Shown piece by piece: positions 2,263 to 57,348 of a DNA stretch of 60,000 nucleotides. The DNA is from Bolinopsis microptera (lineage: Eukaryota; Ctenophora; Tentaculata; Lobata; Bolinopsidae). The DNA lies in NCBI RefSeq assembly GCF_026151205.1, contig NC_087079.1:18100945-18160944 (forward strand). Reading direction: 5' to 3'. Made by a program: the position numbers and the translations under genes. The notes under the pieces were generated by a model. The model saw nothing but the letters and a program-made list of their open reading frames with translations, was not told the DNA's origin and did not search any database. Position 1 is the stretch's first letter; the number at the start of each line of letters is the position of its first letter.

Positions 2263-2390
2263 GTTGTGTTAATTAGTAACCCTGCAATTAACGTTGTGTT
2301 AATCAGTAACCCTGTAATTAACGTTGTGTTAATTAGTAAACCTGTAATTAACGTTGTGTTAATTAGTAACCCTGTAATTAACGTTGTGTT
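2263..2390. repeat. 30-bp minisatellite, right-hand block (4 copies)
   Basis: Same unit as the array at the left edge. The last unit runs straight into the 3' splice region of the first visible CFAP54 exon. Confidence 0.95.
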
Positions 2391-2392
2391 AG

Positions 2393-2555
2393 ATGTAACT
2401 ATCCCAGACTCAACATGAAGCATATAAACGGATCCTCTATCACCCTGATCCGGCACCTGATTGAGAGTATCCTGGTTTCAGTGGATATTGCTATTAGAGA
2501 GGGAGCCCTGTTTTGCAATGTCACGTGTGATCAGGGTCCTTTCAAGACTAAACAG
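2393..2555 (+). CDS. CFAP54 exon 1 of those in window
   Basis: Encodes LNMKHINGSSITLIRHLIES, then a helix ending at GPFKTKQ. The donor CAG|GTGGGA is strong, phase 0 at its end. The acceptor is uncertain: TTAG at 2,391-2,392, or CCCAG at 2,406-2,407. Both keep the frame open. Confidence 0.65.
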
Positions 2556-5500
2556 GTGGGAGATTGTAATACTAATATTATATATTGTAAAGTTGTAATA
2601 CCAATTATATGCGTTATCATCACTTTAATAAAATTGATCCACTACAGATACGATGCATCTTCTTTCATCACAACAACATTTCAGCTAGCAAGACTGGGCC
2701 TATGCGAGAAGCTCCTGGTAGCAATAGAGCTGTCAGGCCGTATTAACGACACTCAGCTAGGAACCCAAGCCATTATCCAGACGTACGGTCTACTTGCTCC
2801 CCTTATTCATCATAACATCATGTGTTATCCTGCACTCAAGGTACGGTCTACTTGCTCCCCTTATTCATCATAACATTATGTGTTATCCTGCACTTAAGGT
2901 TAGGACTGTTACAAAAAGTTCGATCAAATTGATGATGTAAAACTTACTATCTTGCAAGCTCTGAATCTTACAGTTTAAGATTTTATTTGGATCGTAATAA
3001 CTTGTGCTGTGTCCTCTGATAATTTGAATAGCAAACATGATAATATAGCATGATATTTTACAACTCCTAGTCATGAACTTACCTTTCATAATTGAGCATC
3101 AAATCATAGTCTATCAAATTTAAATTATCAATTCAACAATATTAACAAAATTTGATAATTGAAAATAACTTGTTTCCTCTGATAAGGTACTGTTGTATTG
3201 TCACGCTGCTTTGACAGAGCTTCCTGGGGTAGTAAAACAGAAGAAACACGCTGGAAACATACAACACATGACAGGAGTCATCACTTTCTATCTCAGCAAG
3301 GTTAATTACTTAATTAGTTAATTGGCTGATAATTGATTTGTTAATTTTTTCAATGAATTCGAATGATTATGGCTGAATTTAGTGGCCGGAAATTGTATTG
3401 CTATTTCGATAATAATCTGTGTTCATCATAACTCTTGAGCCTTACAAGCTAATAATTAGTCGATTAATTAGCTAATTAGCTAATTAGTTAATTAACTCCA
3501 CATCCCACCAGACGCTGCACCAATGGGGAGAGTTAGAGGGAGCAGCCCTGATAAGTGAGAATGGGCACGAGCTACTTACCCAGTTTGATTGTTTGTATGA
3601 TGAACTTAGTGAACAGTCTCATGCTATCACTCCTAATAACAAGAAGAAACCTGTTAAGAGAACTGATAACACAGGGTAAGTAGTCACATAGTGGTCACAT
3701 AGTGGTCACTGGTCACGTAGTGGTCACATAGTGGTCACATTAGTGGTCACTGGTCACATTAGTGGTCACATAGTGGTCACATAGTGGTCACATAATGGTC
3801 ACATTAGTGGTCACGTGGGATAGCTGTAAGTTTTTGTTTATCAGTTTAGGGGGGGCCGGGGGGGGGGGGGGGTATCAAAGAAGGAATATAACCTTTTTAT
3901 TAGTTGTTTATTTCTGTTTATTTGTTGACCAATGACTTATTAAACTTAAAAAGTTACCTGAATAACAGCACAACTTGACCACCACATCTAATCAGAAAAG
4001 AAAAGAAAGGGAACCTGAAAGACATGATCCAGGACCCAGGAGGTGCGCCAATCCTTAAGAGTGACACAGTTAAAGCGTTTGAAGCGCACGTGCTGCGTCA
4101 CAGTGCAATCTACCCCACTAACAGCAGCGGAGATCCGGACTTTACCGGACAGGAGGACTTTAACTTGCTCTACACTGCTGTCGCTAACTTGTCCAGTCAT
4201 CAAGCTCAAAAAGAAGGTTTGATTTAACGGATTGCTGGGCTGTGTACTTCTGGTATCTCCTTTTCTTTTATAGGTCACTTATCTTTCTTCCATCTTATCC
4301 TCCTATCTCCCTTGTGTACTGTACTTCTAGTATCTCCTTTTCTTTTACAGATCACTTATCTTTCTTCCATCTTATCCTCCTATCTCCCTTGTTTATTCTA
4401 TCTGATATCTCACCTAGACCTCTTATCTCCATCTCTCCAGTCTCTAATCCCCTCAGTGTACAAGTTCAGACTCTTATATCTCCAGTCTCTAATCCCCCTT
4501 CCCTCAGTGTACAAGTTCAGACTCTTATATCTCCAGTCTCTAATCCCCCTCAGTGTACAAGTTCAGACTCTTATATCTCCAGTCTCTAATCCCCCTTCCC
4601 TCAGTGTACAAGTTCAGACTCTTATATCTCCAGTCTCTAATCCCCCTCAGTGTACAAGTTCAGACTCTTATATCTCCAGTCTCTAATCCCCCTTCCCTCA
4701 GTGTACAAGTTCAGACTCTTATATCTCCAGTCTCTAATCCCCCTCAGTGTACAAGTTCAGACTCTTATATCTCCAGTCTCTAATCCCCCTCAGTGTACAA
4801 GTTCAGACTCTTATATCTCCAGTCTCTAACCCCCCTTCCCTCAGTGTACAAGTTCAGACTCTTATATCTCCAGTCTCTAATCCCCCTCAGTGTACAAGTT
4901 CAGACTCTTATATCTCCAGTCTCTAATCCCCCTCAGTGTACAAGTTCAGACTCTTATATCTCCAGTCTCTAATCCCCCTCAGTGTACAAGTTCAGACTCT
5001 TATATCTCCAGTCTCTAACCCCCCTTCCCTCAGTGTACAAGTTCAGACTCTTATATCTCCAGTCTCTAATCCCCCTCAGTGCAAGTGTACAAGTTCAGAC
5101 TCTTATATCTCCAGTCTCTAATCCCCCTCAGTGTACAAGTTCAGACGCCGGTCCCGGTTCCTGGAGCTGTATGTGCGTGTGCTGGAGAAGGCCCTGCTAG
5201 AGAGTAGAGTCTCTAATCCCCCTTCCCTCAGTGTACAAGTTCAGACGCCGGTCCCGGTTCCTGGAGCTGTATGTCCGTGTGCTGGAGAAGGCCCTGCTAG
5301 AGAGTAGACCCGACCTAGTGGTGGACTGGTGCAGTGAGGCTGTGGCCTGGTTAACACGACGTAACGACCTTCTCATCGCTCAGAAGGCTCTTAATAAAGA
5401 CGTTAAACCGGCTAAGAATCTAGAGGTAATGGCTGTGTAGCTGTGTTTATAATCTAGAGGTTTTCATTTACTTTTTGAATTAATGGCTGTGTTTGGGGTC

Positions 5501-8500
5501 TCGAGGGTTTCATTAACTATTTGAATTAATGGCTGTGTTTAGGATTGGCATTTTTCTTTTTTCGGTAAATGAACAGGACTTTGATATATTATTTTTACTT
5601 GCTGTATGATACATTAATAATATGCAGATGCTGAAACAGACTGTGATGGCTAAAGGATCTGATGCTGCTCTTGCTAAGAAGAATGATAACAAAACCCCTG
5701 GCGTCAAAAATATGTCCAAAAAGGAAGGGGTGAGTAATGCATTAGTGAACATTTTAGCCATCCAGTAAACTTGTCAATTGATACTTTTCGAATTTTATTT
5801 ATTTTTCAATTTTCAATATTTTTTCAATATGATGCTCACTTTCTCTAATTTATTTGCTGATCGCTGTGCAAGTTAAGCCTTTAACATTTTGAATAGGAAT
5901 GCGCCGATAAAACTCGATATATCGGTGAGAAGGATGTAATTTATTTGATATATAATTTTAGATCAAGCCATTTAAACTTCTGGGTCAGCCGGATGAGAAT
6001 AAAATGCAGGTATGTTACTCTAGTGCAGTGCTCTTATCTCGTTAACATTACCTTATATGGTAGTGTTACCATAGTGACACTACCATATAAGGTGTGTGAC
6101 TCTAGTTCTCTTCTCTTCCAGCATGACTCTCAAGTCTAGATTGTAGACCTTATAATATGCATGTTTTGAGCTTCTTGCTCTGGATTTTTCTATTTTAACC
6201 AAGTTCCATAACGTTTCATAAAAACTTATACACTCTTAAACAAATTTGTTTCTTAGAAAATTTGTACCCTTATATATATATATTAGTGTTTAGAATTTAT
6301 TTGTTTTTATAAACTTTTAACTAGATCAATAGTGTATTGAACTTAAGTCTGATTTATACATATAATAAGAATCTGATATATATATAAGAATCTGATCGGT
6401 AGGAACTTTCGACAAATTGTAAATAATCCAGAAATTTTAGAGATTTTGTTATGATTACTTCAATACAAATACATAATAATGCTGTGACCGTGTGTTAACA
6501 TGATGACTACCCAGGCTGCAGAGCTACTCAGAGCCATCCTGCCAGATACCTGGAGAAGATCCTGTAGAATACAGAGACTACGTCTTATTACCCACGAGGA
6601 GATGCCCTGGAGAGCCCAGGTTTGCTGCTGAAGCATGAAATTGTAACTTTAAGTCGTTTCATAGTGCTTTCTAATGGAATTATTTGACCTTGAGGTCATA
6701 AATTTAAGTCTTTGCAACCTTCAGCTTCTGTTCGTGTTCTCAATTTAAATAATTAAATACAGATTCAAATAAATGTGATATTTTATTTCGTCTGATAGAG
6801 CTACTTATTATATATATATTAAGTATAGAGTACTATATAAATATAGAACTACTTTTCAGCTGAACGTGATACTTGCCGCCTCCTGTTACCAACAATTCAA
6901 AGATAAGATGGACACTAGAGTCAAGTCTTTTAATGATGCTGCTGATTTTAGTCATGGTACTGTGGTGGCTTTATCATTATACTTTATTGAACTTACTTAC
7001 GCAAACTTTAATACTTAGGCAAACTTTACTGATGCAAACTTTACTTAAGCAAACTTTACTGATGCAAACTTTACTGATGCAAACTTTACTTAAGCAAACT
7101 TTACTGATGCAAACTTTACTCAAGCAAACTTTACTGATGCAAACTTTACTTAAGCAAACTTTATTTAAGCAAACTTTACTGATGCAAACTTTACTCAAGC
7201 AAACTTTATTTAAGCAAACTTTATTTAAGCAAACTTTACTGATGCAAACTTTACTCAAGCAAACTTTACTGATGCAAACTTTACTGAAGCAAACTTTACT
7301 CAAGCAAACTTTACTGAGGCAAACTTCACTGATGTAAACTTTACTGATGCAAACTTTACTTAAGCAAACTTTACTGATGCAAACTTTACTCAAGCAAACT
7401 TTACTGATGCAAACTTTACTTAAGCAAACTTTATTTAAGCAAACTTTACTGATGCAAACTTTACTCAAGCAAACTTTACTGATGCAAACTTTACTGATGC
7501 AAACTTTACTGATGCAAACTTTACTGAGGCAAACTTCACTGATGTAAACTTTACTGATGCAAACTTTACTTAAGCAAACTTTACTGATGCAAACTTTACT
7601 CAAGCAAACTTTACTGATGCAAACTTTACTTAAGCAAACTTTATTTAAGCAAACTTTACTGATGCAAACTTTACTCAAGCAAACTTTACTGATGCAAACT
7701 TTACTCAAGCAAACTTTATTTAAGCAAACTTTACTGATGCAAACTTCACTGATGTAAACTTTACTGATGCAAACTTTACTCAAGCAAACTTTACTGATGC
7801 AAACTTTACTTAAGCAAACTTTATTTAAGCAAACTTTACTGATGCAAACTTTACTCAAGCAAACTTTACTGATGCAAACTTTACTGATGCAAACTTTACT
7901 GATGCAAACTTTACTGAGGCAAACTTCACTGATGTAAACTTTACTGATGCAAACTTTACTTAAGCAAACTTTACTGATGCCAACTTTACTTAAGCAAACT
8001 TTACTGATGCAAACTTTACTTATGCAAACTTTACTTAAGCAAACTTTACTGATGCAAACTTTACTGATGCAAACTTTACTTAAGCAATCCGATGGAATCG
8101 ATGTAATATCATGTATTCGTTATATATATTACCGTTTCTGTGATATGCTAACAATTATAATTGGAAAAGCAAGTTATAAAATAAATTCTGTTAAAACTGA
8201 TGGTGGTGACCTTCAGAATGTTCAAAGTCACAGTTGTGTAACAGTAGCCTCCCAGGCGGAGAGTACGACTTGTTGCCTAGCAACATGTTCGTGGTGGGTG
8301 ACGTTGGGAGCATGATGAACAATAGTGATGATCCTATTGAGGATATTCTGCGCGAGGTCAATTAGTAAATCTTATACTACTTTCGTTTTGCAGTTTATTC
8401 TTTCATTCTCATACCATTTTGTGATACTTATGTTTTATAATTTAATCTGTTTTCGCTCTTTTGAGTGGGTCAATCATATAATTGATGTTTTGGGACAAAG

Positions 8501-29500: not shown

Positions 29501-30971
29501 ATTTTGTTAGGTTCCTTCTGGGATGTTGAGTTCCTTCTAGGATGTTGTTAGGTTTCTTCTGGGATGTTGGGTTCCTTCTGGGATGTTTTTAGGTTCCTTC
29601 TGGGATGTTGAGTTCCTTCTAGGATTTTGTTAGGTTCCTTCTGGGATGTTGGGTTCCTTCTGGGATGTTGTTAGGTTCCTTTTGGGACATTGAGTTCCTT
29701 CTGGGATTTTAGTTTCCTTTTGGGATGTTGAGTTCCTTCTAGGATGTTGTTAGGTTTCTTCGAGGATGTTGTAGGTTCTTTATGGGATGTTAGGTTCCTT
29801 TTGGAATGTTAGGTTCCTTCTGGAATGTTAGGTTCCTTCTGGGATGTTGTAATCTCTCCTTCTGGGATACAAGATACGCGACTTACAGATGATCATCTTT
29901 TGAGTCTTGCAGATGCTCTGAAATATTTAAATCCAATTAATTACGTGTATTTGGGGGTGTGGGTGTATTAATTGTAATAGTTGATAACGATATTCCCGTG
30001 TGCAATGGCTCTCATTAAAAAATACAAATTGGAGTGTATTGTGTAACAAAGTTAATATTCACTACTTCATTCTTTAATGCTACAAGCAGCAAAAGACAAC
30101 GATATTTATTTAGTTAGTGATTTTGACACTACTTGGGGGTCCAAATTACAGGACCTAAAGTTCTTATTCTTTGGGCAATTTTATATATTTTCTTCAAAAT
30201 GGTCGAAATGCCATAAAAGCATTCAGCCCAGCCACAAATGTTTCCAGGGTTTATCTCTCATGGTTTTCACGAATCACAGAAAGTGGTGTCAAAATTGATA
30301 ATGTTAAAGGTTCATCTGTGCATCAAGTTCAAACTTACATTTAAACTTTGTTGGTACTCGGTAGGCTAGGGCTATCAAGCTATGATTCTGGTGTCCTTAA
30401 TGGTGTTCTTTTTTTCTGAAAATGTAAAAGCTCTTAAGTTGATCGTCATTACATACAATATTTTCTATTGCAGCGCGTCATTTTCGAGAAGACAGAGGTA
30501 ACCGTAAACTAAATGATTTCTCTGGAATCTTTTGTTTTTTAATCGATTCAAATAAATATCCATACTTTTTCTTCGTAAGCCAAAAATAAAAATGGTTTTA
30601 TTATTAAATATTGATCCGAAATTGTGGAATAAGAGCTTTTATTAGGATTACCTCATTCGGAAGAACCAATACTGGAAGAGATACAAGGGAGAAGAGTCTT
30701 TTGTAAATTCTCTCGCTTGCTTGCCGATCTTGCTGCTCTGAAATTTAACAATTCAACAATTCATTATTATGAATAATTGAATGTTTATCGGAGATATTGG
30801 TGATAATCTGGTTGATCTATTAATGCTTTTCATGCAAACAAGAGAAAACGAATCTTTTATGTCATGTTTCCAAAACTATGTCAAATACTTTATAAAAACT
30901 TTCGTTCTCCTTCAGAGATTATTAAACTCACCTTCCGGCTTCCTGTATGCGTTGATTTTCATCTGCAGGCT

Positions 30972-31011
<40 letters not shown>

Positions 31012-49000: not shown

Positions 49001-52000
49001 ACCCTTTTTTTCGTGGAGCAAAAATGTGTTTTTTCTTCACACTTTCACAGAATGACAACAGTATATTATTAAATATCAATAATTAATTAATTAATTAATT
49101 AATTAATTAATTAATTAATTACAGGAGAAGGTTTCAACATCCCCGCCCTGATACCCGGAGTAGACCTGCTATCTGACCAGTTCAGATGCAGTGCTAGTGT
49201 GCTTGTTGGGTCTCTACACTACGTGTCCGAAACTCTTGTTAGACACCAGTTCGCTAGTCAGGTTTACAGTTACCATAGTTACACTAATAGTTACCATAGT
49301 TACACTACTACTAGTTACCATAGTTACACAGTTTACAGGATAGCTAGTCAGGTTTACTCATAGTTTAATTAGTTAGTTATTTAATTTGCTAATTAGTCAG
49401 GTTTACAGAATAGTTTAATTAGTTAGTTATTTAAGTTGCTAATTAGTCAGGTTTACTCATAGTTTAATTAGTTAGTAACTTAAGTTGCTAATTAGTCAGG
49501 TTTACTCATAGTTTAATTAGTTAGTAACTTAAGTTGCTAATTAGTCAGGTTTACTCATAGTTTAATTAGTTAGTTATTTAAGTTGCTAATTTCATGGCTA
49601 ATTATTCAGTAAGATTAATAAGAGTGTAACTTTGTAACGGTTGATTATTTCAGGCTCTACCAGTACTGTCACTATATCACTACGTTGCCATGTCTCTTCT
49701 ATCCGACACCAAACATCTTATTCTTGCTAGAATACTCAAGGTTGGTCATTTTATCGTTTATAACTTTATAATCATATTCTCACTGTTTAATGAGCTTGCT
49801 GGTCACGAAATTTAGTATTTATTATAAATAATATTGATATAGTTTAGATATTTCCTAAATACATTTTTTGATAAAGTTGACAGAAACAAGTTGACTGATA
49901 AGCTACTAACTCTGTACAGGTGGAAGCACTGACACAGTTATCCATGTTAACAGATGCTCTGCAATTGTGGAGTCTGGTATCTCAAACTGAGGCGATGCCC
50001 ACCCCTCCTACTTCTCATGGCAATAACATTTCCAACAAAACTGTGAGTTAATAATTAATTAATTGATCATTTGTAATGATTATACAACTTTCTCTTGCTG
50101 ATTGCACATTATTCGGCTTTTCCTTTGTGGCTTACTCTTTGAACATGCTGAACAGCACTAGACACTGTTTAGGTACCGGAAAAGCTTCTTCTGCTTTCCT
50201 GTTCTTCGCTACTTAATTCCATTTACCTTGACATTCTCATGTAATCATTTTCGTGTTTCAAAGAATCTCAGTAATTTCAGTTATTTTTTGGTTCTTTCAA
50301 AAAATGTTTATTAGTTGAGTTTGCAGGAGAATTATGTACCAGTAACAGCTGTATCCCTATGGGTGGGTCACATATCTCACTTGTTCGTATAGTGTAACTC
50401 CTGTAACTAGTGTAACTAGTGTAACTCCTGTAACTAAAACATTTAGATCTGTTGGCGAGCCTGTATTGACACGTGTTATTCTGTGTCACGTGTCTGTATT
50501 GACACGTGTTACTCTGTGTCACGTGTCGTCGTGACACGTGTTACTCTGTGTCACGTGTTACGTGTTATTCTGTGTCACGTGTCGTCGTGACACGTGTTGA
50601 TGCAAATATGGCTCCCCACCAGTATCTAGATTTATTTAGCAGTATATTATTGAAGTTTGTTTTATAAAAAGTGAAAAACTTGTGACGTTGGCATGGTTTA
50701 AGTCGATTGTTTTGTATGGGCATTTCCCTGTGTAACTAAACCATTAAGCTTTATGTTTTACTGCATACGTGATCATTTAAGAGCTCCAATATTATACCAA
50801 GGAGCAATGAGCATGAACAAACGAGGGAGCAAGTGAGATATATGGTAATTTCTTAACTTAAAGTGCAAATTTCGGAGGGAAATGAAATTAAGTTAGGAAA
50901 TTACCATTATTTTCACTTAGTTGAATATTAGACAATGGTTAGTGTTGTACCGAATAAAAAGTGAAAACTTGTGAATTTGGTGTTTATTAAATCGAGTAAC
51001 ATGTGAGTTGTGATGTTATGTAAACTTTTAAATGAATAACTTATGACGGTGGCATGGTTTGCGCCAATAATAATCTCTCGGTGAAGCATCGAAAGTTATA
51101 TTTATAAGTTTACTGTTCGAATGATTATAAAAGTCATCCTCAGTTCTCAGAGTTATAAATCTAAATATCTCGCAGAATGTTCCAGAGTACAACATAACAG
51201 AACCACTAAACAGTACCCAGAACGTACAAGCTGTGGAGCATGCTATAAAGTGCAAGATCCCCCCAATCCCTCAACCCCCCTTCACTACTAACCTATCAGC
51301 ACTTGCGCAGCTGGCGCACGCTGGGTTGATGCTGGCTATTGCGCAGCGGTCCTCTGTTGTGCCTATGTACAGTGAGGGCAGTGAGAGTCAAAGTAAGAAT
51401 GTCTCCTGGAATATAAACAAATTCACTGACAATTGTACTGAACTGACCATTACTTGTCTCCTGGGATATAAACAAATTCACTGACCATTGTACTGAACTG
51501 ACCATGTACCGACCATGTATTTTTAATTCCCTGTTATCCCTTCAAATAATGATTATTCCCACAGCTACAGAATCTGCCATCAAGTACAAACTGTGTAATT
51601 CGGCTGAAGTTATACTCATGCACCTCTCCAAATGTGCTGATAAAGGTAATTCAGTATGCCATATTTTGAAAGTTTGAACTGACTAAACAGCTCTACACTT
51701 CTGAAAATTTCCTCAACTTCTTTTTGAGTTTTAAATTTCTCCCTTCAGAAGACGCCCACTACTGTGAAATAGAGATAGGGGTGAGTTCCCGTAGGTTGCT
51801 GTGCACTATCGCACTGGAGAAACAACTGGGGGCTACCATAGTTAACCTCAGTAACTACGGGCTCTCACTTCTCCAGCGCTCTTATCAGCTTGACAGGTCT
51901 GTAGCTTACATTTCTGTTGTTTTTAGAGATAGATACATCTTAGTTTTCGGTGATTAATGATTGTGATGACGGAGTTTAAAACATTGTATTGTGAACTTAT

Positions 52001-54206
52001 TTTCTACGTGCTTCTGTTACACTTAATTTGACATTGAAACAATCTTGTAACAATCCTGATTTGTCAACCTTGCGATCCTACTATAACATTATATTATTAG
52101 ACAAGAGGTAGTTTCCTACGATGAGATGTGCAGTAAGAGGCGGCTGGACAGTCTGGCCTGGCTACAGTTAAAATGTGCTATGATCCAAGGGTTTGGCCTC
52201 ATGACCACCATGTACGGTAAGTCATCCACTTACAAGGTCCCAATGCAACTTGGACCTTGATTTTTTTCTTTCAGTCTCAACTTCAGAAATCGTCGCTTGT
52301 CTTGCAAGTGTTTTTATGGCAGTGGTGCATCGTCTTCTCTTATCATTCCATGAACCTACAAAATTCCAGGTGCGAATGATTGCAAGCAAATATGTGCCGC
52401 CACGAAAGAGGAATCTCAGCTATTCAATTCGAGTGAAATGCAAGCCTGGATATCACTGAAAGACCTTGTCTTGGATATCAACGCCAGCAACACTTTCCAA
52501 GTTGAGGTAGGCGTCTCATTTCCAGCAAAAAAACTTGATAACATTCGAAACATTCCTTTGATAAATTCAAATATTCACGTCCATAGTCATTCAACCATTA
52601 TATTCATTATGCATCGTGAAGCTGTCCAGCTCGCAAGGTGGCGGCTTATTTAGCAGAATTGACAAGGCGGGAGGTCTACTGCGCGGCTCAGTTGGCATGG
52701 TAACGCTAATCAAATGTTATGAAGAACAAATTTATTTTCGCGCGTTTTGTCCACATGTTAATTAAATTCTTTAATTTCACGGCTGTTATTTGATTAATAA
52801 ATAAATATTTATTAATTATTCTATAAAAAAGGCGTGCCTGAATAAATGCGTTCACCCTGATTTTTTGTGAACCTTAATTTCAAGATAGCAGTTTTTAAAA
52901 TGTTTAGGATCAAGATAAGAAGAATTGCTACTTGTTAGTTGTTTGGCAAATCATCTTCATCACTATTTTTAGAGTCAGATACAGCCTCTTTTTAAATGCT
53001 CATGCCATTTTTCAGCGTCAGATAAAAGAAGGTCTCTCCAGGATGGTGGCCCCATCCTGTCTGGGTGCCAGTGTTAGTGTTGGTACTATCCTGTACTGTG
53101 CTTCTAGAGCTACTAATAAGGAGGACTCTCTATCCAGGTCAGCAACTGAATGGTTTAAATGTTTGTAACAAATTGTACTGTGTTTAATTAGCATAAATAA
53201 GCCACGGTATGTGCAATTTTTAAAAATCGTCTCCGTCACTTCGGCCTTCGTATCAAGAAAATGTAAGTTAGTTTCAGTTGTACCCACTAAATGTTAATAT
53301 GTGATATCTATGTTAATCTTATCGTTTACTTATATTTTGCTTTTTTACGGAGCGAATCTGCGAAGTCCAGGTAATTGCTAGATCCCCTCTTCCGCCAACT
53401 AGCACGTGATAATGGTGAAGACTGAAAACCAGCATCAGTGTGCCGTGGACAATATTGATAGATCTATTAGCAATTAATAGGATTAATCTACTAATTACTA
53501 GTAGCATTCTTGTCATGCTATCAGTATATTTCAAGAATCCTCGCGGGCAAACTGGCCACTGGGTTACATCAAAACCTCCAACTTTCTCATGATTTTCAGT
53601 AACTAACCTCCAAAACTAATACATATTGCAGTCAGGGAGTACCACATAGTATGGTAACCTCTACATGCTCCATCCTCCATTACATGCTTTATTACAGTAA
53701 CTAACCTCCAAAACTAATACATATTGCAGTCAGGGAGTACCACTTAGTATGGTAACCTCTACATGCTCCATCCTCCATTACATGCTTTATTTCAGTAACT
53801 AACCTCCAAAACTAATACATATTGCAGTCAGGGAGTACCACTTAGTATGGTAACCTCTACATGCTCCATCCTCCATTACATGCTTTATTTCAGTAACTAA
53901 CCTCCAAAACTAATACATATTGCAGTCAGCGAGTACCACATAGTATGGTAACCTCTACATGCTCCATCCTCCATTACATGCTTTATTTCAGTAACTAACC
54001 TCCAAAACTAATACATATTGCAGTCAGGGAGTACCACTTAGTATGGTACCCTCTACATGCTCCATCCTCCATTACATGCTTTATTTCAGTAACTAACCTC
54101 CAAAACTAATACATATTGCAGTCAGGGAGTACCACATAGTATGGTAACCTCTACATGCTCCATCCTCCATTACATGCTTTATTTCAGGTTTCGACCTGGA
54201 AAATAA
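2393..54206 (+). CDS. CFAP54-like ciliary central-pair protein, C-terminal part, 31 exons traced
   Basis: CFAP54 (Chlamydomonas FAP54) is a protein of about 3,000 residues in the C1d projection of the axonemal central pair, where it works with FAP46, FAP74 and FAP221 to control ciliary beating. The identification rests on collinear blocks that I recognise: LSGRINDTQLGTQAIIQTYG (exon 2), the alpha-helical RFLELYVRVLEKALLE block (exon 5), ALVLAHRGAHWGLLQNIASQ (exon 12), LWETLKILYTNNQFEKLAYI (exon 15), GAFKWWCDALDTLLH with WGCLLGACIASNISQ (exon 20), LFKALFHASLPHPASDYQY (exon 21), and ALIPGVDLLSDQFR (exon 22). Every listed exon is bounded by AG and GT. Phases match at all junctions except exon 14 to 15. 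The exons sum to about 1,345 codons, so the N-terminal half lies left of the window. Codon use is GC-richer than the AT-rich introns. Alternative: another large axonemal protein such as CFAP46, which I consider less likely. Confidence 0.8.
2685..2840 (+). CDS. CFAP54 exon 2
   Basis: Acceptor CATTTCAG|CTAGCA; reads LARLGLCEKLLVAIELSG and onward to HHNIMCYPALK, phases 0-0. An earlier AG at 2,647 would be out of phase with exon 1. The donor AAG|GTACGG is used because the duplicated copy downstream reads into a stop. Confidence 0.8.
2783..2898 (+). repeat. 58-bp tandem duplication of exon 2 end with its splice donor
   Basis: The last part of exon 2 with its donor is present twice in tandem. Copy 1 ends CTCAAG|GTACGG at 2,840; copy 2 ends CTTAAG|GTTAGG at 2,898. 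Reading on into copy 2 gives a stop at 2,871-2,873, so the upstream donor must be used for a full-length protein. Confidence 0.85.
3512..3675 (+). CDS. CFAP54 exon 3
   Basis: Acceptor CCCACCAG; reads TLHQWGELEGAALISENGHE to KKKPVKRTDNTG; donor GG|GTAAGT, end phase 2. The lysine-rich end suggests a flexible linker. Confidence 0.8.
3680..3880. repeat. Degenerate TGGTCAC minisatellite and poly-G run
   Basis: Repeats of AGTGGTCACAT with variable spacing occupy about 3,690-3,820. A G-run of about 25 bases interrupted by CC follows at 3,848-3,872. Both are intronic, just after exon 3. Confidence 0.85.
3996..4216 (+). CDS. CFAP54 exon 4
   Basis: Acceptor CTAATCAG; reads KEKKGNLKDMIQDPGGAP, then ANLSSHQAQKE; donor GAAG|GTTTGA, end phase 1. 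Confidence 0.8.
4437..5231 (+). repeat. 46/51-bp minisatellite carrying 16 copies of the exon 5 splice acceptor
   Basis: Units alternate between 46 and 51 bp; the difference is a 5-base pyrimidine insertion. Each contains CCCTCAGTGTACAAGTTCAG, which is the pyrimidine tract, AG and first bases of exon 5. CAGTGTAC-type sites begin at 4,454, 4,505, 4,551, 4,602, 4,648, 4,699, 4,745, 4,791, 4,842, 4,888, 4,934, 4,980, 5,031, 5,077 (altered), 5,129 and 5,229. Only the last leads into the full exon. Confidence 0.9.
5132..5207 (+). pseudogene. Truncated duplicate of the start of exon 5
   Basis: Seventy-six bases match the start of exon 5 with one mismatch (GTGCGT for GTCCGT), then break into repeat sequence after GAGAGTAG. 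It has an acceptor but no donor, and reads to a stop, so it is a broken exon copy within the minisatellite. Confidence 0.85.
5232..5425 (+). CDS. CFAP54 exon 5
   Basis: Acceptor CTTCCCTCAG, phase 1; reads YKFRRRSRFLELYVRVLEKA, then VVDWCSEAVAWLTRRNDLLI and AKNLE. Donor GAG|GTAATG, phase 0. Helical repeat-like sequence. Confidence 0.85.
5628..5729 (+). CDS. CFAP54 exon 6
   Basis: Acceptor ATATGCAG; 34 codons from MLKQTVMAKG to NMSKKEG; donor GGG|GTGAGT; phases 0-0. Charged, probably a linker. Confidence 0.8.
5962..6009 (+). CDS. CFAP54 exon 7 (48 nt)
   Basis: Acceptor AATTTTAG; reads IKPFKLLGQPDENKMQ; donor CAG|GTATGT; phases 0-0. A small exon that gene predictors may miss. Confidence 0.75.
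6050..6093. repeat. Hairpin with 17-bp arms containing CArG-like CCTTATATGG
   Basis: Arms ACCTTATATGGTAGTGT and its reverse complement are separated by 10 bases. A related half-copy (CATTACCTTATATGGTAGT) lies near 8,649 in another intron, which suggests a small dispersed element. Confidence 0.7.
6515..6619 (+). CDS. CFAP54 exon 8
   Basis: Acceptor CTACCCAG; reads AAELLRAILPDTWRRSCRI, then LITHEEMPWRAQ; donor CAG|GTTTGC; phases 0-0. Confidence 0.8.
6860..6956 (+). CDS. CFAP54 exon 9
   Basis: Acceptor CTTTTCAG; reads LNVILAASCYQQFKDKMDTR, then FNDAADFSH; donor CATG|GTACTG, end phase 1. Confidence 0.8.
6995..8087. repeat. 15-bp minisatellite (GCAAACTTTACTGAT), about 72 copies
   Basis: Units are GCAAACTTTACTGAT or variants (ACTTAA, ACTCAA, ATTTAA), with higher-order blocks of about 210 bp that repeat the same variant order. 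It lies inside the intron between exons 9 and 10, which it enlarges. Long frames on both strands (QTLLK.. and SKVCISKVCL..) are repeat translation. Confidence 0.95.
8256..8356 (+). CDS. CFAP54 exon 10
   Basis: Acceptor CCTCCCAG; phase 1 start. Reads GGEYDLLPSNMFVVGDVGSM and ends PIEDILRE; donor GAG|GTCAAT, end phase 0. Confidence 0.8.
8713..8807 (+). CDS. CFAP54 exon 11
   Basis: Acceptor CAATGCAG; reads GHVNVSPSLEREKTNLTALM, then KKGSVSSVTS; donor AAG|GTATAA, end phase 2. Ser/Lys-rich linker. Confidence 0.8.
9191..9383 (+). CDS. CFAP54 exon 12
   Basis: Acceptor CGTTTCAG; phase 2 start. Reads QSKYCLSSDKAKEIK, then LVQTFVSLTQALVLAHRGAH, then LWRIVMDLHMKMK; donor AAG|GTGACT, phase 0. One of the most recognisable CFAP54 blocks. 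Confidence 0.85.
9631..12700 (+). repeat. 70-bp minisatellite, 44 copies, built from the exon 13 acceptor and exon start
   Basis: Copies start every 70 bases exactly from 9,631 to 12,641, without indels. Each unit is TTTCAG plus the first 61 or so bases of exon 13 (ACCCTGCCAACCTCTACAAG to CTATCAATGATCTCACTA). The first copy is preceded by a different intron end (ATAAAACG), all others by CTCACTAT. Units differ by rare substitutions such as AAGC/AAGT. Because 70 is not a multiple of 3, reading from any earlier copy meets TGA in the next unit. Confidence 0.97.
12645..12776 (+). CDS. CFAP54 exon 13
   Basis: Uses the 44th (last) acceptor CTATTTCAG. Reads TLPTSTREALGLTDQAINDL, then MYHMADFMLDYVENIISCNE; donor GAG|GTGAGA; phases 0-0. 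Any earlier acceptor gives a premature stop. Confidence 0.85.
13011..13118 (+). CDS. CFAP54 exon 14
   Basis: Acceptor AATTGCAG; reads DIEDPSTIVGKAEDIDGGA and ends DDTSFVHIRW; donor TGG|GTGCGT; phases 0-0. It precedes the 27.5-kb intron. The phase does not fit the best acceptor of exon 15. Confidence 0.8.
13770..14475. repeat. GGTTCCTTCTGGGATGTTG minisatellite (left copy)
   Basis: Degenerate 20-24-bp units with alternating TTAG, G or AG spacers. The equivalent array in the right duplicate is 29,080-29,845. Confidence 0.95.
15516..18952 (+). repeat. G-rich satellite, roughly 65 units of about 50-58 bp
   Basis: Each unit is GAGCTAACTGTATGGACTAC, ATGAAATATTGAGTGGTGGT, then a run of about 8-25 G. 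Unit cores are almost identical; only the GTG and G-run lengths vary. The orthologous spot in the right duplicate (30,971-31,053) has a single unit. The G-runs are on the strand that matches CFAP54 pre-mRNA, so G-quadruplexes could form in the RNA. Confidence 0.97.
18953..20588. other. Intronic duplicated sequence, no gene recognised
   Basis: Shared with 31,054-32,900. Two open frames are conserved between copies (19,217-19,426 + and 19,482-19,742 -), but they overlap on opposite strands' neighbourhoods, lack recognisable domains and the minus frame differs at its end between copies, so I do not call genes. Confidence 0.6.
20589..20777 (-). CDS. Secreted mosaic gene, left copy: sushi (CCP) exon
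   Basis: A 189-nt exon with symmetric phase 1-1: TTTTTTCAG acceptor, GTAAAT donor. It encodes about 63 residues with the CCP pattern: Cys near the start, P-x-D-P-G-T-V-V-V-T-C in the middle, G-S-N-K-V-T-C, then F-x-F-x-K-x-P-C-C. CCP modules mediate extracellular protein binding. It is the last exon I can find in this copy; the 153-nt repeat exons of the right copy are absent, so the gene may be truncated. Confidence 0.75.
20986..21420 (-). CDS. Secreted mosaic gene, left copy: 145-residue extracellular module exon
   Basis: A 435-nt exon, phase 1-1. It begins GWIAVQRDVYIDFNLEQYSL and ends DTATDFYRPLAG. Internal features are SSQEDLAGELFLYFSSSPEY, WRVTLTRTSGITLVVHCNE and FWSRSIAKIRFSSSDTATD. 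The pattern matches a module common in secreted proteins of marine invertebrates, with a WSRD-like and DTASDFYR-like ending. I do not have a secure family name; it resembles the farnesoic-acid O-methyltransferase-type fold (Methyltransf_FA) in its WRVTLTRT..GI segment. The frame is fully open here, unlike in the right copy. Confidence 0.7.
21679..21742 (-). CDS. Secreted mosaic gene, left copy: signal-peptide exon
   Basis: ATG at 21,742; encodes MCIVLLLSLLFIENAAEDLN, a typical signal peptide with a cleavage site near ENAA. Donor GAAG|GTAGGA, end phase 1, matching the next exon. The same exon occurs at 37,391-37,454. Confidence 0.7.
22005..22200. mobile_element. Nested-palindrome foldback element, copy 1
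   Basis: Contains a perfect 32-bp palindrome (22,059-22,090, core GCACGCGCATGCGCGTGC) and a second inverted pair around GGGCCCAACGGGCCC. A close relative lies at 23,591-23,798. No coding sequence. Confidence 0.65.
22414..22665. repeat. Interstitial telomere-like (CCCTAA)n tract
   Basis: About 35-40 repeats of CCCTAA, interrupted by CCTGACCCAGGA variants towards the right end. Standard animal telomere motif, but in the middle of an intron. Confidence 0.95.
22675..22840. repeat. GGGGTCAATTGTC short repeats with inverted partners
   Basis: At least seven GGGTCAATTGTCG copies, plus inverted CGACAATTGACCCC-type copies flanking the segment AGTGTAATTACAT. Directly adjoins the telomere-like tract. 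Confidence 0.8.
23365..23435. repeat. 71-bp perfect palindrome (35-bp arms, 1-base spacer)
   Basis: Left arm CTAAACTATTAAACTTTAAC and onward to GACACGT; the right arm is its exact reverse complement, with one A between. Could extrude as a cruciform or form a hairpin in RNA. Confidence 0.95.
23591..23798. mobile_element. Nested-palindrome foldback element, copy 2
   Basis: Outer inverted ends GCTGGTGGATATAT and ATTATATCCACCAGC flank inner palindromes (AAATATTGCACGCGCG..., GGGCCCATCGGGCCC). Another lone GCTGGTGGATATATA end lies near 24,885. A nonautonomous DNA element is likely. Confidence 0.7.
24291..24304. promoter_or_regulatory. X-box-like RFX motif
   Basis: GTAACCATAGTAAC fits GTNRCC-N2-RGYAAC. 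It is followed by TGTCACGTG (E-box) and GAGCCAATCA (CCAAT box). A diverged cousin of this module is at about 23,205-23,260. Within repeated DNA, so function is uncertain. Confidence 0.4.
25317..26787. repeat. About 485-bp direct repeats flanking a GC-rich foldback
   Basis: 25,317-25,806 and 26,305-26,787 are direct repeats (shared AAAAAAGGACCGAG, TTGGGGCAGCCCATTGATTT, CAACAGGCAACACACCTAAA). Between them is a segment starting CACGTAGCCAGGGGGG with inverted GCAGCCCCCCCCGGAAAAAT / ATTTTCCGGGGGGCTGCGCC ends, a look typical of DNA-transposon relics. No ORF. Confidence 0.7.
26800..28500. other. Intronic sequence without recognisable gene
   Basis: AT-rich, no long ORFs, no clear repeats apart from a segment at 28,390-28,500 that is shared with about 13,610-13,710 and 28,925-29,030. 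Confidence 0.6.
29080..29845. repeat. GGTTCCTTCTGGGATGTTG minisatellite (right copy)
   Basis: Counterpart of 13,770-14,475, with a different number and order of variant units, so the arrays have evolved independently since the duplication. Confidence 0.95.
30971..31053. repeat. Single unit of the G-rich satellite with a run of about 40 G
   Basis: One TAACTGTATGGACTACATGA unit with flanks matching both ends of the 3.4-kb array in the left copy. This is either the unexpanded state or a collapse. Confidence 0.9.
31949..32287. mobile_element. SINE-like retroposon, 339 bp, with 13-bp target duplication
   Basis: AAAGGAACTAATT occurs at both ends (31,936-31,948 and 32,288-32,300), and once at the empty site in the left duplicate (AAATGAACTAATT, near 19,827). 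The left end is A-rich ((AAAT)n); the core starts ATGCAACCTACTAAAACCAA. A fragment of the same family is at 46,515-46,572. Confidence 0.85.
32933..33723. mobile_element. Nonautonomous element with 260-bp direct terminal repeats and 15-bp target duplication
   Basis: Terminal repeats 32,933-33,192 and 33,464-33,723 differ at one base. Each begins TGTTTTTGCCATGAAACGG and ends GGACAAACAAACA, thus TG...CA. The 271-bp interior has no ORF and contains ACTATATAAG. TATAATATATGTAAA flanks both sides (32,918-32,932 and 33,724-33,738). The layout is LTR-like, but 15 bp is too long for a retroviral-type integrase, so a Penelope-like or other mechanism is possible. Absent from the left duplicate. Confidence 0.8.
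33854..34006 (-). CDS. Secreted mosaic gene, right copy: ephrin-receptor-like exon g
   Basis: A 153-nt exon, phase 1-1 (TTACAG acceptor, GTAAGA donor), with about 51 residues and six cysteines: PCSAGSYMTESGCQQCGENS, FSAAGASSCSDCPEN, then EDDCVF. The pattern is that of GCC2/GCC3 (ephrin-receptor-like) modules of extracellular proteins. This is the most 3' and most diverged of the seven copies (NMIS for DMVS). Confidence 0.75.
34179..34331 (-). CDS. Ephrin-receptor-like exon f
   Basis: Same 153-nt phase 1-1 exon, 325 bp upstream of the previous one; reads CGENTFSAAGASSCSECPED. The introns are near-identical too, so the whole 325-bp block was duplicated. Confidence 0.75.
34504..34656 (-). CDS. 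Ephrin-receptor-like exon e
   Basis: Exact 325-bp spacing from exon f. Variant ALCSAGSFMTESGCQQC lacks the usual proline. Confidence 0.75.
34829..34981 (-). CDS. Ephrin-receptor-like exon d
   Basis: Again 325 bp on. Reads APCSAGSFMTESGCQQCGEN; all six cysteines present. Confidence 0.75.
35128..35149 (-). pseudogene. Relic of an eighth ephrin-receptor-like exon
   Basis: Only the first 22 or so bases of the exon with its acceptor remain. The upstream intron's ATGAAG joins the exon's own ATGAAG, so about 131 bp were lost between 6-bp microhomologies. Confidence 0.75.
35345..35497 (-). CDS. Ephrin-receptor-like exon c
   Basis: Variant APCSAGSYMTDSGCQQCGKN; flanking introns are more diverged than the others. 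Phase 1-1 retained. Confidence 0.75.
35670..35822 (-). CDS. Ephrin-receptor-like exon b
   Basis: 325 bp from exon c; reads APCSAGSYMTKSGCQQCGEN and ends STSEDDCVY. Confidence 0.75.
35995..36147 (-). CDS. Ephrin-receptor-like exon a (most 5')
   Basis: 325 bp from exon b; reads APCSAGSFMTESGCQQCGDN. It follows the sushi exon in gene order. Confidence 0.75.
36318..36506 (-). CDS. Secreted mosaic gene, right copy: sushi exon
   Basis: 189 nt, phase 1-1; CTGLKAEWTSTIETAANFPV, then DPGTVVKVTCSDSGALNKGS, then EFTFLKEPCC. Near-identical to the left copy exon at 20,589-20,777. Confidence 0.75.
36716..37134 (-). pseudogene. Secreted mosaic gene, right copy: 145-residue module exon with frameshift
   Basis: Homologous to 20,986-21,420 but 419 nt against 435. 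A 19-nt gap after CTGATATCA, partly offset by other changes, shifts the frame. After LISVNGALTGAGTLQRY it no longer gives the WSRD...DTATDFY ending, which is still visible in another frame. The exon then exits in phase 0, and the following sushi exon would be read into a stop within five codons. This copy is therefore either a pseudogene or carries a sequencing error. Confidence 0.7.
37391..37454 (-). CDS. Secreted mosaic gene, right copy: signal-peptide exon
   Basis: Start at 37,454; same MCIVLLLSLLFIENAAEDLN peptide and GAAG|GTAGGA donor as the left copy. Confidence 0.7.
37515..38325. mobile_element. Insertion of about 0.8 kb in right duplicate, with MITE
   Basis: Absent from the left copy, where GGAAA runs straight into TTCTAACGTTAGTG. 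It starts near TACAGGGTGGGCCAAAAGT, a look shared by Tc1/mariner-type ends, and contains the MITE at 37,970. No transposase ORF. Confidence 0.6.
37970..38135. mobile_element. MITE, 166 bp, with inverted GGGGTCGTTCAC ends
   Basis: Ends GGGGTCGTTCACATATTACG and CGTAATACGTGAACGACCCC are inverted. The interior has a run of about 17 G. A diverged relative may lie at about 42,880 (ACAAATTACGTAACACGGAGG). Confidence 0.75.
38140..38850. other. Intronic sequence without recognisable feature
   Basis: The end of the right duplicate lies here; the rest is AT-rich with no ORF or repeat of note. Confidence 0.6.
38855..39298. repeat. 10-bp minisatellite AGAGCCGTAC, about 43 copies
   Basis: Regular CCGTACAGAG units with occasional GGGGCAGAGC or AGCAGAGC variants. 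Long minus-strand frames (YGSVRLCTAL) are repeat translation. Confidence 0.95.
39358..39930. repeat. Diverged direct repeat pair
   Basis: About 39,358-39,640 and 39,700-39,930 share GCTCCATTCTTTGTTCGCTG-type sequence and CTCCTCAGTTAATATCTT. No coding potential. Confidence 0.65.
39931..40634. other. Intronic sequence before CFAP54 exon 15
   Basis: Includes a GAAATGAAATGAAATGAGG run near 40,095 followed by ATCCCGCTCATATGATTAACC, possibly a SINE relic. Otherwise nothing recognised. Confidence 0.5.
40649..40747 (+). CDS. CFAP54 exon 15
   Basis: Strong acceptor TTTCTCCCTTACAG; reads CTATLWETLKILYTNNQFEK, then LAYIGTRFNQLT; donor CAA|GTCAGT, end phase 2, which fits exon 16. With this acceptor it needs a phase-2 predecessor, whereas exon 14 ends in phase 0. 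A weak TGAG acceptor at 40,633-40,634 would restore the frame and add FLPYS. Confidence 0.75.
40889..43545. repeat. Imperfect inverted repeat (arms about 40,889-41,552 and 42,955-43,545)
   Basis: The right arm is the reverse complement of the left arm with many indels and homopolymer changes. Examples: AAAGGACTAACTCAAAATTC against GGACTAACTCAAAATTTTCC, and TTCTGATGCAGAATGACCCT against TTCTGATGCAGAATGCCCCT. The centre (41,553-42,954) is unusually rich in runs of three or more identical bases. This may be low-accuracy consensus. Confidence 0.7.
43640..46303 (+). repeat. C-rich satellite, about 58 units of 45-47 bp, ending at CFAP54 exon 16
   Basis: Unit: AGTAGGTACCAATTGTTTGG, TGCTAACTATGTGA, then a run of 6-20 C. 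Each C-run plus AG resembles a 3' splice site. The last one, ending CCCCTCAG, is the acceptor of exon 16. The left end (43,640-44,050) is more degraded. Confidence 0.97.
46305..46444 (+). CDS. CFAP54 exon 16
   Basis: Phase 2 start after the C-run; reads DVFGEQTYPLIIYSKRKLVD, then YNEPWHTETSSVSIRSTVT; donor CAAG|GTATGT, end phase 1. Confidence 0.85.
46515..46572. mobile_element. SINE-like fragment
   Basis: ATGCAACCTACTAAAACCAA followed by TGGGGCCCTCCCCGGGGTCA matches the start of the element at 31,949. Confidence 0.7.
46736..46915 (+). CDS. CFAP54 exon 17
   Basis: Acceptor CCCTTTCAG, phase 1; reads AHENISPQIVEALRLCSVPL, then LQYCRQLLLCYLAGYGK; donor AAGG|GTTAGT, end phase 1. Confidence 0.85.
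47046..47377 (+). repeat. 45/63/81-bp in-frame minisatellite with seven exon 18 acceptors
   Basis: GTAACCTAAAGCCGAGTAGC begins at 47,054, 47,135, 47,198, 47,243, 47,288, 47,333 and 47,378, each after TTCCCCAG. All spacings are multiples of 3 and no stop occurs, so each acceptor gives an in-frame protein with 15-residue repeats (GNLKPSSSPHNTCSP). Units also carry the E-box palindrome ACACGTGT. Confidence 0.95.
47378..47530 (+). CDS. CFAP54 exon 18
   Basis: Taken from the last GTAACC acceptor; reads NLKPSSSPVSSFHPGTAGAS, then LFVSPLSTSSYGIIVSTYEK; donor ATAG|GTTTGT, phases 1-1. Another in-frame acceptor is at 47,403-47,404 (27 nt shorter), and six lie upstream. Confidence 0.8.
47703..47790 (+). 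CDS. CFAP54 exon 19
   Basis: Acceptor GATCCCAG, phase 1; reads MLQVKGKTDLAVQAMHELGN, then VLFHSGNT; donor TAA|GTTAGT, end phase 2. Helical tetratricopeptide-like sequence. Confidence 0.8.
47984..48139 (+). CDS. CFAP54 exon 20
   Basis: Acceptor CTATTACAG; reads GAFKWWCDALDTLLHMTNSM, then IWGCLLGACIASNIS; donor CA|GTGAGT, end phase 2. A diagnostic CFAP54 block. Confidence 0.9.
48377..48780. repeat. 21-bp minisatellite with about 19 CRE (TGACGTCA) motifs
   Basis: Unit CCTGATGACGTCACACTGCCC and close variants. Nearly every unit has the palindromic CRE/ATF site TGACGTCA; one has TGACATCA. It fills the intron between exons 20 and 21, ending 12 bases before the acceptor. Confidence 0.95.
48793..48923 (+). 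CDS. CFAP54 exon 21
   Basis: Acceptor CCCAACAG, phase 2; reads YIVSHSVDDKVDACLLSAQL, then FKALFHASLPHPASDYQYVN; donor ATAG|GTCAGT, end phase 1. Confidence 0.9.
49078..49120. repeat. (TTAA)n microsatellite abutting exon 22 acceptor
   Basis: About ten TTAA repeats running to 4 bases before the exon, which uses TTAATTACAG as acceptor. Confidence 0.9.
49125..49261 (+). CDS. CFAP54 exon 22
   Basis: Phase 1 start; reads GEGFNIPALIPGVDLLSDQF, then LVGSLHYVSETLVRHQFASQ; donor CAG|GTTTAC, end phase 0. The acceptor lacks a pyrimidine tract. Confidence 0.85.
49253..49600 (+). repeat. Minisatellite repeating the exon 22 splice donor
   Basis: The exon end and donor AGTCAGGTTTAC occurs at the true site and five more times (about 49,346, 49,395, 49,445, 49,494, 49,542), in units of about 50 bp with TAGTTTAATTAGTTAGT. 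Three GTTACCATAGTTAC copies lie between the first two. Confidence 0.85.
49654..49740 (+). CDS. CFAP54 exon 23
   Basis: Acceptor TTATTTCAG; reads ALPVLSLYHYVAMSLLSDTK to ARILK; donor AAG|GTTGGT; phases 0-0. Confidence 0.85.
49920..50042 (+). CDS. CFAP54 exon 24
   Basis: Acceptor CTGTACAG; reads VEALTQLSMLTDALQLWSLV, then SQTEAMPTPPTSHGNNISNK; donor ACT|GTGAGT; phases 0-0. Confidence 0.85.
50385..50600. repeat. Cluster of TGACACGTGT / ACACGTGTCA palindromes
   Basis: About eight CACGTG E-box cores within inverted and direct GACACGTGTTACTCTGTGTC units, preceded by CTAGTGTAACTC repeats. In the intron after exon 24. Confidence 0.85.
51176..51392 (+). CDS. CFAP54 exon 25
   Basis: Acceptor ATCTCGCAG; reads NVPEYNITEPLNSTQNVQAV, then TTNLSALAQLAHAGLMLAIA, then PMYSEGSESQ; donor AA|GTAAGA, end phase 1. 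A tandem duplication of about 53 bp follows in the intron (51,402-51,510). Confidence 0.85.
51565..51645 (+). CDS. CFAP54 exon 26
   Basis: Acceptor TTCCCACAG; reads TESAIKYKLCNSAEVILMHL, then SKCADK; donor AAG|GTAATT; phases 1-1. Confidence 0.85.
51749..51896 (+). CDS. CFAP54 exon 27
   Basis: Acceptor CCCTTCAG; reads EDAHYCEIEIGVSSRRLLCT, then LSNYGLSLLQRSYQLD; donor ACAG|GTCTGT, end phase 2. Confidence 0.85.
52101..52216 (+). CDS. CFAP54 exon 28
   Basis: Acceptor TATTATTAG, phase 2; reads QEVVSYDEMCSKRRLDSLAW, then LQLKCAMIQGFGLMTTMY; donor TACG|GTAAGT, end phase 1. Confidence 0.85.
52275..52369 (+). CDS. CFAP54 exon 29
   Basis: Acceptor TTTCTTTCAG, phase 1; reads STSEIVACLASVFMAVVHRL, then LLSFHEPTKFQ; donor CCAG|GTGCGA, end phase 0. 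Reading on past the donor reaches a stop at KCKPGYH, so splicing is required. Confidence 0.75.
53016..53137 (+). CDS. CFAP54 exon 30
   Basis: Acceptor ATTTTTCAG; reads RQIKEGLSRMVAPSCLGASV, then YCASRATNKEDSLS; donor CCAG|GTCAGC, end phase 2. Confidence 0.8.
53597..54187 (+). repeat. 98-bp minisatellite, six copies, carrying the last exon's branch site and acceptor
   Basis: Units start at CAGTAACTAACC (53,597, 53,695, 53,793, 53,891, 53,989, 54,087). Each has branchpoint-like TAACTAAC, then ACATATTGCAG|TCAGGGAG and the first 66 bases of the last exon. Only the last unit continues into GTTTCGACCTGG and the normal stop. Confidence 0.95.
54122..54206 (+). CDS. CFAP54 last exon and stop
   Basis: From the sixth TGCAG acceptor, phase 2: SQGVPHSMVTSTCSILHYML, then YFRFRPGK and TAA. 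A second acceptor (TTTCAG, 54,186-54,187) in the same phase would give only FRPGK and stop. Earlier copies of the TGCAG acceptor give an end of YFSN and stop instead. Confidence 0.75.
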
Positions 54207-57192: not shown

Positions 57193-57348
57193 GTTGAGAT
57201 ACACTACGAGTGTCAGGCCTGTCAGTAACACCTTAGTAACACCCTAGTAACACCCTAGTAACACCCTAGTAACACCCTAGTAACCCGGACACTTGCCATG
57301 GTTACTGGAAGAGGGTTCAGATACACTACGAGTGTCAGGCCTGTCAGG
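57160..57348 (+). repeat. 66-bp exon duplication separated by 11-bp minisatellite
   Basis: CCGGACACTTGCCATGGTTA to GCCTGTCAG occurs at 57,163-57,228 and 57,285-57,350 with one base change, GTTGAG to GTTCAG. Between the copies are five TAACACCCTAG units. The first copy supplies a donor, the second an acceptor. Confidence 0.85.

Follow-up and report, generated by a model that had tools for sequence, protein, structure and literature searches.

Tandem-repeat arrays at splice junctions of a CFAP54 gene in the ctenophore Bolinopsis microptera

Results

A repeat-rich CFAP54 gene

The window, a stretch of 60,000 nucleotides from the ctenophore Bolinopsis microptera (contig C8, 18100945-18160944, 307-367 kb short of the contig end), lies within a gene for the ciliary protein CFAP54. 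This identity, named in the original prediction from the letters of the DNA, was confirmed initially by a match to PDB 9ijj_H (E 2.5e-27, and 2.8e-91 with a longer query) and by tblastn with two proteins: P0002, the B. microptera RefSeq protein ‘cilia- and flagella-associated protein 54-like isoform X2’, and P0001, the Mnemiopsis leidyi ortholog (82% identity across 68% of the query). The tblastn alignments, supplemented by a small gene finder trained on CFAP54, yielded a model of 53 exons and 104 splice junctions that occupies positions -10068 to 74844 relative to the window, extending 10 kb upstream and 15 kb downstream of the window. Exon numbers beginning with E refer to this protein-anchored model and were matched as best possible to those of the original prediction, whose list was without exon 40649-40747, the donor duplication at 2840, a weak one at 5425 and three arrays outside the window. 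The gene finder picks decoys inside arrays, and its exon calls beyond CFAP54 and a neighboring CH-domain gene are weak.

The reading frame of CFAP54 is intact through E27. From E28 onwards the joined exons fall out of frame, since the assembly is one base off the Mnemiopsis frame before approximately position 40668, near the start of that exon; exon-wise matches persist downstream, and the difference is likely an assembly indel. P0002, which represents isoform X2, begins at 13090 in E27, in a different frame.

Repeat units contain splice junctions

Arrays were called by TRF, which at a score of 80 gave 43 non-redundant rows in CFAP54, one of them a homopolymer. An array was considered spanning when it covered 5 nt or more to either side of a junction and adjacent when it lay at most 12 nt away on the intron side; both limits were set after inspecting the arrays. 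Copies of a splice site were counted when 10 nt of exon edge were kept with at most one mismatch, together with the AG or GT. By this rule, the repeat unit contains the junction at 9 of the 104 CFAP54 junctions, comprising four acceptors (16, 44, 7 and 3 copies with AG) and five donors (17, 16, 2, 2 and 2 copies with GT), although the E18 donor does so only weakly (Table 1). Seven TRF rows span a junction; at donors 5425 and 49261 the unit contains the junction but no TRF row crosses it. Five arrays adjoin a junction from its intron side at a distance of at most 12 nt; one of the five, at 49268, belongs to donor 49261. Three junction arrays lie beyond the window, at donors -8116 and -2346 and acceptor 66095, and the CH-domain neighbor has one further junction-spanning array, a 46-bp acceptor array.

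Table 1. Positions of junction-associated repeats and of two exons of CFAP54, in window coordinates.
Feature	Position	Strand	Repeat	Description
E3 donor array	-8116		43 bp x17	TRF, spanning
E11 donor array	-2346		61 bp x19.5	TRF, spanning; 16 GT copies
E13 acceptor array	2263..2391	+	30 bp x4.3	Intron-only unit; ends 1 nt before exon 2393-2555
E14 donor duplication	2783..2900	+	58 bp x2	Duplicated exon end; donor 2840 duplicated at 2898
E18 acceptor array	4434..5146	+	46 bp x15	Unit is intron end, AG, 15 nt of exon
E18 real-acceptor repeat	5125..5308	+	100 bp x1.8	77 nt of exon and 23 nt of intron end; exon 5232-5425
E18 donor weak echoes (TCTAGAG/GT)	5453..5540	+	46 bp x1.9	
E26 acceptor array	9629..12709	+	70 bp x44	Unit is TTTCAG and 64 nt of exon
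Exon E26	12645..12776	+		Protein-anchored exon model
Exon E28	40649..40747	+		tblastn and gene finder; 1-nt frameshift; absent from the original prediction
Array before E29	43661..46296	+	45 bp x59	C-rich, intronic; ends 8 nt before acceptor 46305
E31 acceptor array	47035..47403	+	45 bp (TRF x5)	7 AG copies; exon 47378-47530
Array before E34	48366..48783	+	21 bp x20	Intron-only; ends 9 nt before acceptor 48793
E35 donor-side arrays	49268..49591	+	49 bp x5	Donor 49261; unit holds CTAGTCAG/GTTTAC
Intronic array	53594..54187	+	98 bp x6.1	Ends in TTTCAG; no exon there
E50 acceptor array	66095		93 bp x2.7	TRF, spanning; 3 AG copies

The most extensive series was found at E26, where the 44 acceptors that the original prediction had announced were indeed counted. 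The exon body continues from the last copy only (exon start 12645), the copies score 4.1-5.3 by position weight matrix with the real acceptor at 5.2, and seven sites vary among them. At E18, with 16 AG copies, the real acceptor 5232 sits in the 100-bp repeat rather than the 46-bp one. The array before E29 has an intron-only unit whose C-rich composition matches an acceptor tract, and the E13 unit belongs to the family of an array at 6-841. Across the spanning units the exon share ranges from roughly 0.2 to 1.0 and the junction occupies no fixed place in the unit, which is what random breakpoints would give.

The original prediction had arrays ending exactly at eight exon borders. For seven of the eight an array end does lie within 9 nt of the border, but at ‘exon 1’ (E13), ‘exon 16’ (E29) and ‘exon 21’ (E34) the arrays adjoin it and stop 1, 8 and 9 nt short. 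The eighth, a ‘last exon’ at 54188, was rejected as it is without protein support: both proteins go from an exon ending at 53137 to one starting at 61805, and the 98-bp array at 53594-54187 is therefore intronic. Without it, units made of intron end, AG and first exon bases are found at three (E18, E26 and E31, the ‘exon 5’, ‘exon 13’ and ‘exon 18’ of the prediction) of the at least four exons proposed. The array at ‘exon 22’ was correctly read as repeating a donor, that of E35 at 49261. The broader statement that the arrays multiply functional splice signals describes some of them, whose copies look usable, as at E26, while others merely abut a junction.

Frame consequences of copy choice

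Use of a decoy acceptor leads to a stop codon in the exon at E18 (15 of 15 decoys), E26 (43 of 43) and E50 (2 of 2), and use of the second copy at the donors of E3, E14 and E18 likewise leads to stops. The next copy with a GT at E11 reads open, yet out of phase. Each of the six E31 decoys leaves the frame open and in phase, at 45 nt per full unit, and so does the second donor copy of E35 at 49351, which would add 30 codons; purging therefore does not enforce the choice of copy at E31 and E35. At all nine junctions the Mnemiopsis protein P0001 fits a single copy, as does the Bolinopsis protein P0002 at E31, E35 and E50; the other six junctions are judged by the Mnemiopsis protein alone. From frame and protein models we infer that the surplus copies are hidden by splicing and that the spliceosome apparently selects the copy directly joined to the exon body.

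None of the TRF arrays is confined to a CFAP54 exon. The accepted exonic arrays elsewhere, few as they are, have units that are multiples of three (192 and 60 bp in a gene nested in a CFAP54 intron, and 66 bp in a merely predicted exon of the sampled stretch L015). Most junction-spanning units are not (43, 61, 58, 46/100, 70, 49 and 46 bp, as opposed to 45 and 93 bp). Purging would explain the absence of frame-breaking exonic arrays in CFAP54.

Array placement compared with chance

Array positions were compared with two nulls, both of which assume uniform birth; the choice of CFAP54 for its arrays biases the comparison towards an excess. In the per-intron null, arrays stay in the introns where they lie, and the position of the source unit is random. 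At TRF cut-offs of 50-200 this null expects 4.4-6.0 spanning arrays among 30-56, where seven were seen (P 0.12-0.39), and at a cut-off of 300 it expects 3.2, where six were seen (P 0.067). Spanning and adjacent arrays taken together give P 0.034-0.082. Because the introns are short, several junction-spanning arrays are expected from random birth.

In the whole-gene null, arrays are collapsed and source units are uniform over the tolerated positions of the gene. Here 7 of 41 arrays span a junction against 3.27 expected (P 0.036), and when the three longest introns are removed the expectation is 4.43 of 23 (P 0.13). Adding the two donors at which only the unit contains the junction (nine in all) gives P 0.003, or 0.019 without the three longest introns, values that are not like-for-like since the null counts only TRF-type spanning. 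Five adjacent arrays were seen against 1.24 expected (P 0.008), or 1.84 without the three longest introns (P 0.03).

These comparisons do not bear out the proposal that the arrays are other than random intronic repeat growth. Nor do they sustain the idea that array birth is linked to exon borders, against which the per-intron P values, the variable position of the junction in the unit and an array at the stop codon (see below) all speak. Splice-site seeding as the main cause finds no clear support and was rejected on the per-intron null; a mild preference for junctions may exist.

Arrays with a period of at least 10 cover 26% of the 150 kb surrounding CFAP54. Contig-end samples, taken 0.35 Mb in, have a coverage of 22% (five stretches of 10 kb) and 11% (18 stretches of 1.5 kb), while at 4.9 Mb it is 5.1% in the 9 of 10 stretches that were usable (L025 is all N and L029 half N; the genome sample totals about 0.18 Mb). 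The end effect is uneven, since 11 of the 18 short stretches have no arrays and one of the five 10-kb stretches reaches only 1%. None of 25 interior arrays and of 24 chromosome-end arrays, the latter taken from the 10-kb stretches, convincingly spans a predicted junction, and therefore such arrays are not everywhere and CFAP54 sits in a repeat-rich region. Arrays also overlap predicted exons in L013 (21 bp), L017 (24 bp), L023 (31 bp, a length not divisible by three), L028 (21 bp), L029 (86 bp) and L032, cases left uncounted because those exons are repeat-coded or weak; an array in L015 (85 bp, 5 nt off a predicted donor) was likewise uncounted.

A second assembled copy and the CH-domain neighbor

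CFAP54 is assembled twice. The second copy, of which L052-L057 are pieces, lies at C8:17984594-18049299 and matches E2 to approximately E39, whereas its 3' end is found on another contig (C1:8139767-8154252, minus strand). Because its placement is broken across contigs, the second copy is probably the other haplotype, although it may be a paralog; the duplication suggests haplotype sequence that was both retained and misplaced.

Array lengths differ between the two copies. The window copy has 17 units at E3, 44 at E26 and 9 at E53, where the second has 6, roughly 37-38 and roughly 19, the last two by coordinates; E31 has seven in each (L056 in the second copy). The E11 array is present in both, with at least eight units within 501 nt in the second copy, in which the 21-bp array before E34 is longer and the E13 array again lies against the acceptor (L054). 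By coordinates, the 46-bp array of E18 is missing from the second copy, which has, earlier in that intron, matches at a spacing of mostly 52 bp. At the E14 donor, the second copy is without the 58-bp duplication and carries a 51-bp one of its own that combines about 37 nt from the end of the exon, one of them mismatched, with 11 nt of intron and three extra bases. Two different duplications at one donor hint at a hotspot.

The neighboring gene was assigned by its CH domain (Pfam CH, E 1.2e-19 for two joined exons; the array-bearing exon alone gave 2e-5, just under the cut-off). In L017 its acceptor array comprises 29.1 units of 46 bp at 99% identity, whereas in L051, from the second copy, a single unit lies between two AGTT repeats 46 bp apart. 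L051 looks unpolished, as does L055, a further piece of second-copy sequence.

When the arrays of E18, E26, E53 and the CH-domain gene were used as queries, matches were limited to the two assembled copies, in a search that skips very common words. Partial relatives were found for E31 (65-68% on C10), both arrays of E35 (71-75%, several contigs) and the 11-bp part of E50 (72-78%). Since these have relatives on other contigs, the three arrays need not be purely local births; repeats that were abundant in the genome beforehand may have contributed to them. The 21-bp array before E34 also has related repeats on other contigs. The repeat at 49268-49329 belongs to a dispersed minisatellite family, covered by many of the 285 matches listed for a 626-base query, on many contigs and often with 42-bp spacing.

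An array across the stop codon

The E53 array, nine 64-bp units at 74771-75357, begins within the coding part and extends over the stop codon of the CDS. It is a natural control, as its surplus units are hidden by the stop and no splice site is needed. All nine units carry CTGCAG/GT. The C-terminus of P0002 reads ...KKVLPKAAAGGVGSKRATPGNKEPAS, which the first unit of neither assembled copy encodes: that of the window assembly gives ...AAAGGPGSKRATPGNKEPAT and that of the second copy ...AAAGVPGSKRATPGNKEPAT. When copies 1 and 6 are joined at their AG/GT, however, the last 30 residues of P0002 are reproduced. The implied intron, 74792-75111, is 320 nt long, or 5 x 64. Just one further copy, located two units on, is similar, and it ends in P, not S. 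An allelic origin of the P0002 ending is unsupported by the second copy, whose first unit does not encode it, though alleles of other individuals could possibly do so. RefSeq models generally use RNA evidence.

Discussion

Taken together, the arrays of CFAP54 are likely ‘mirage’ minisatellites, born by chance and tolerated because splicing hides their surplus copies. Short tandem duplications would arise anywhere in this repeat-rich chromosome-end region, probably with a few bases of microhomology as the seed. Those inside exons would be purged for breaking the frame, except where the unit length is divisible by three, and those within introns would survive. Duplications that span a junction would survive as well, because the exon-contiguous copy (the last of an acceptor series, the first of a donor series) would still be recognized and the surplus would leave with the intron. 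Once born, arrays would expand and contract as VNTRs. Of this account, the anatomy of the arrays, the effect of decoy use on the frame, the differences between the assembled copies and the single-unit state in one neighbor were observed, whereas the site that the spliceosome uses, the manner of birth and the role of purging in CFAP54 are inferred.

The principal alternative to chance birth, in which exon borders are prone to tandem duplication on account of splice signals, R-loops or the splicing machinery, draws on the whole-gene excesses (P 0.036 for spanning arrays, 0.008 for adjacent ones) and on the E14 donor, where the two copies carry different duplications and the one in the window has a GT common to its breakpoints. 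We nonetheless regard such seeding as unlikely. The per-intron null gives no clear excess of spanning arrays, the junction moves about within the unit, an array of the same type crosses a stop codon, none of the 25 interior arrays convincingly spans a predicted junction, and the L051 breakpoints are an AGTT repeat, not a splice signal.

Misassembly, which could have inflated copy numbers or invented arrays outright, deserves mention since the locus is present twice with the second 3' end on another contig, so that the scaffolding is imperfect here; the 1-nt frameshift of E28 and the unpolished look of L051 and L055 point the same way. Yet arrays of the same unit recur in both copies at E3, E11, E26, E31 and E53, and the units carry internal variants (as at the seven variable sites of E26), which makes an artefact very unlikely. 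We consider it likewise very improbable that introner-like or transposon-borne repeats were inserted at splice sites. Abutting arrays do belong to dispersed families (the 21-bp repeat and that at 49268-49329), and the partial relatives of the E31, E35 and E50 arrays could be cited in its favor, but the E18, E26, E53 and CH-gene queries found only the two assembled copies (very common words being skipped), and the spanning units contain local exon sequence.

Splice-hidden arrays have a precedent in amphioxus, where two reports describe mirage minisatellites in Adh3, the globins BflGb6 and BflGb9, PGBD5 and TnC (PMC3087553; PMC3902484; Canestro 2002 as cited therein). There, units span exon-intron boundaries at either end, many with AG/GT, copy number differs between haplotypes and the normal protein is apparently kept (PMC3087553; PMC3902484). 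The CFAP54 units resemble them in spanning boundaries at both 5' and 3' exon ends with AG/GT kept in many copies. Copy number in CFAP54 differs between the two assembled copies, which are probably haplotypes but may be paralogs. Protein models of CFAP54 fit one copy per junction, and the C-terminus of P0002 implies splicing inside the E53 array. The present case differs in its ctenophore host, in affecting nine junctions of one gene, in reaching 44 copies (BflGb6 has 6 and 3), in an array that crosses a stop codon and in the single-unit state of the neighboring gene. Titles and abstract openings, including PMC11797021 and covering few subscription journals, gave no report of such arrays in ctenophores. 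With CFAP54, a little-known phenomenon of amphioxus is extended to a ctenophore, an argument that splice-hidden arrays are no peculiarity of lancelets.

Ordinary intronic minisatellites and subtelomeric VNTRs form homogeneous arrays and give more cover near chromosome ends. The arrays of the CFAP54 region are likewise homogeneous and denser near contig ends, in a small sample, but their units include coding sequence and splice signals. The gene offers many natural series of near-identical acceptors and donors, one of 44 copies, for testing exon definition, and it presents apparent before and after states of array birth, with one unit versus 29 in the CH-domain gene and an array missing versus 16 copies at E18.

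The E53 array is a candidate for intron birth through splicing between repeat units. Intron gain by duplication across a border has been described for potato RdRp (PMC4974935). As in intron gain by tandem duplication, where duplication of a border or of an AGGT-bearing exon segment supplies the splice sites, the E53 units carry CAG/GT; unlike it, E53 is a many-copy VNTR, and its intron, implied by the RefSeq protein, is putative. It is conceivable, if doubtful, that this array is an intron being born and, more generally, that genes at ctenophore chromosome ends harbor a large reserve of splice-hidden VNTRs that yield both new introns and, as at E31 and E35, in-frame protein repeats. If so, the length of the five-unit E53 intron would vary with copy number.

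Additional repeats at the locus and in the genome sample

The nested gene, which shares its strand with CFAP54 and lies in intron 53138-61804, is an open frame with Sushi and Ephrin-receptor-like domains (57273-59780, plus strand; Sushi E 1.9e-40), and its in-frame exonic repeats occur in two (192 bp) and three (60 bp) copies. At 57162-57350 in this gene, a stretch of about 60 nt ending in CTGTCAG is present twice with an 11-bp x5.5 array (AGTAACACCCT) between the copies, perhaps another donor- or acceptor-side array.

Intron 27 contains a telomere-like CTAACC array (x34, 87% matches) at 22417-22624, about 0.34 Mb from the contig end, and two arrays of a 325-bp satellite-like repeat at 33735-36231. 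Its stretches 13765-18956 and 29080-31013 are similar, sharing a common 41-bp-type array and neighboring open frames, and are perhaps a duplicated mobile element. Elsewhere in the genome sample, a 65-bp x5 array (L032:7676-8008) has a unit that reads as an acceptor, a 31-nt exon-like stretch and a donor (ACAG...GTGAGT).
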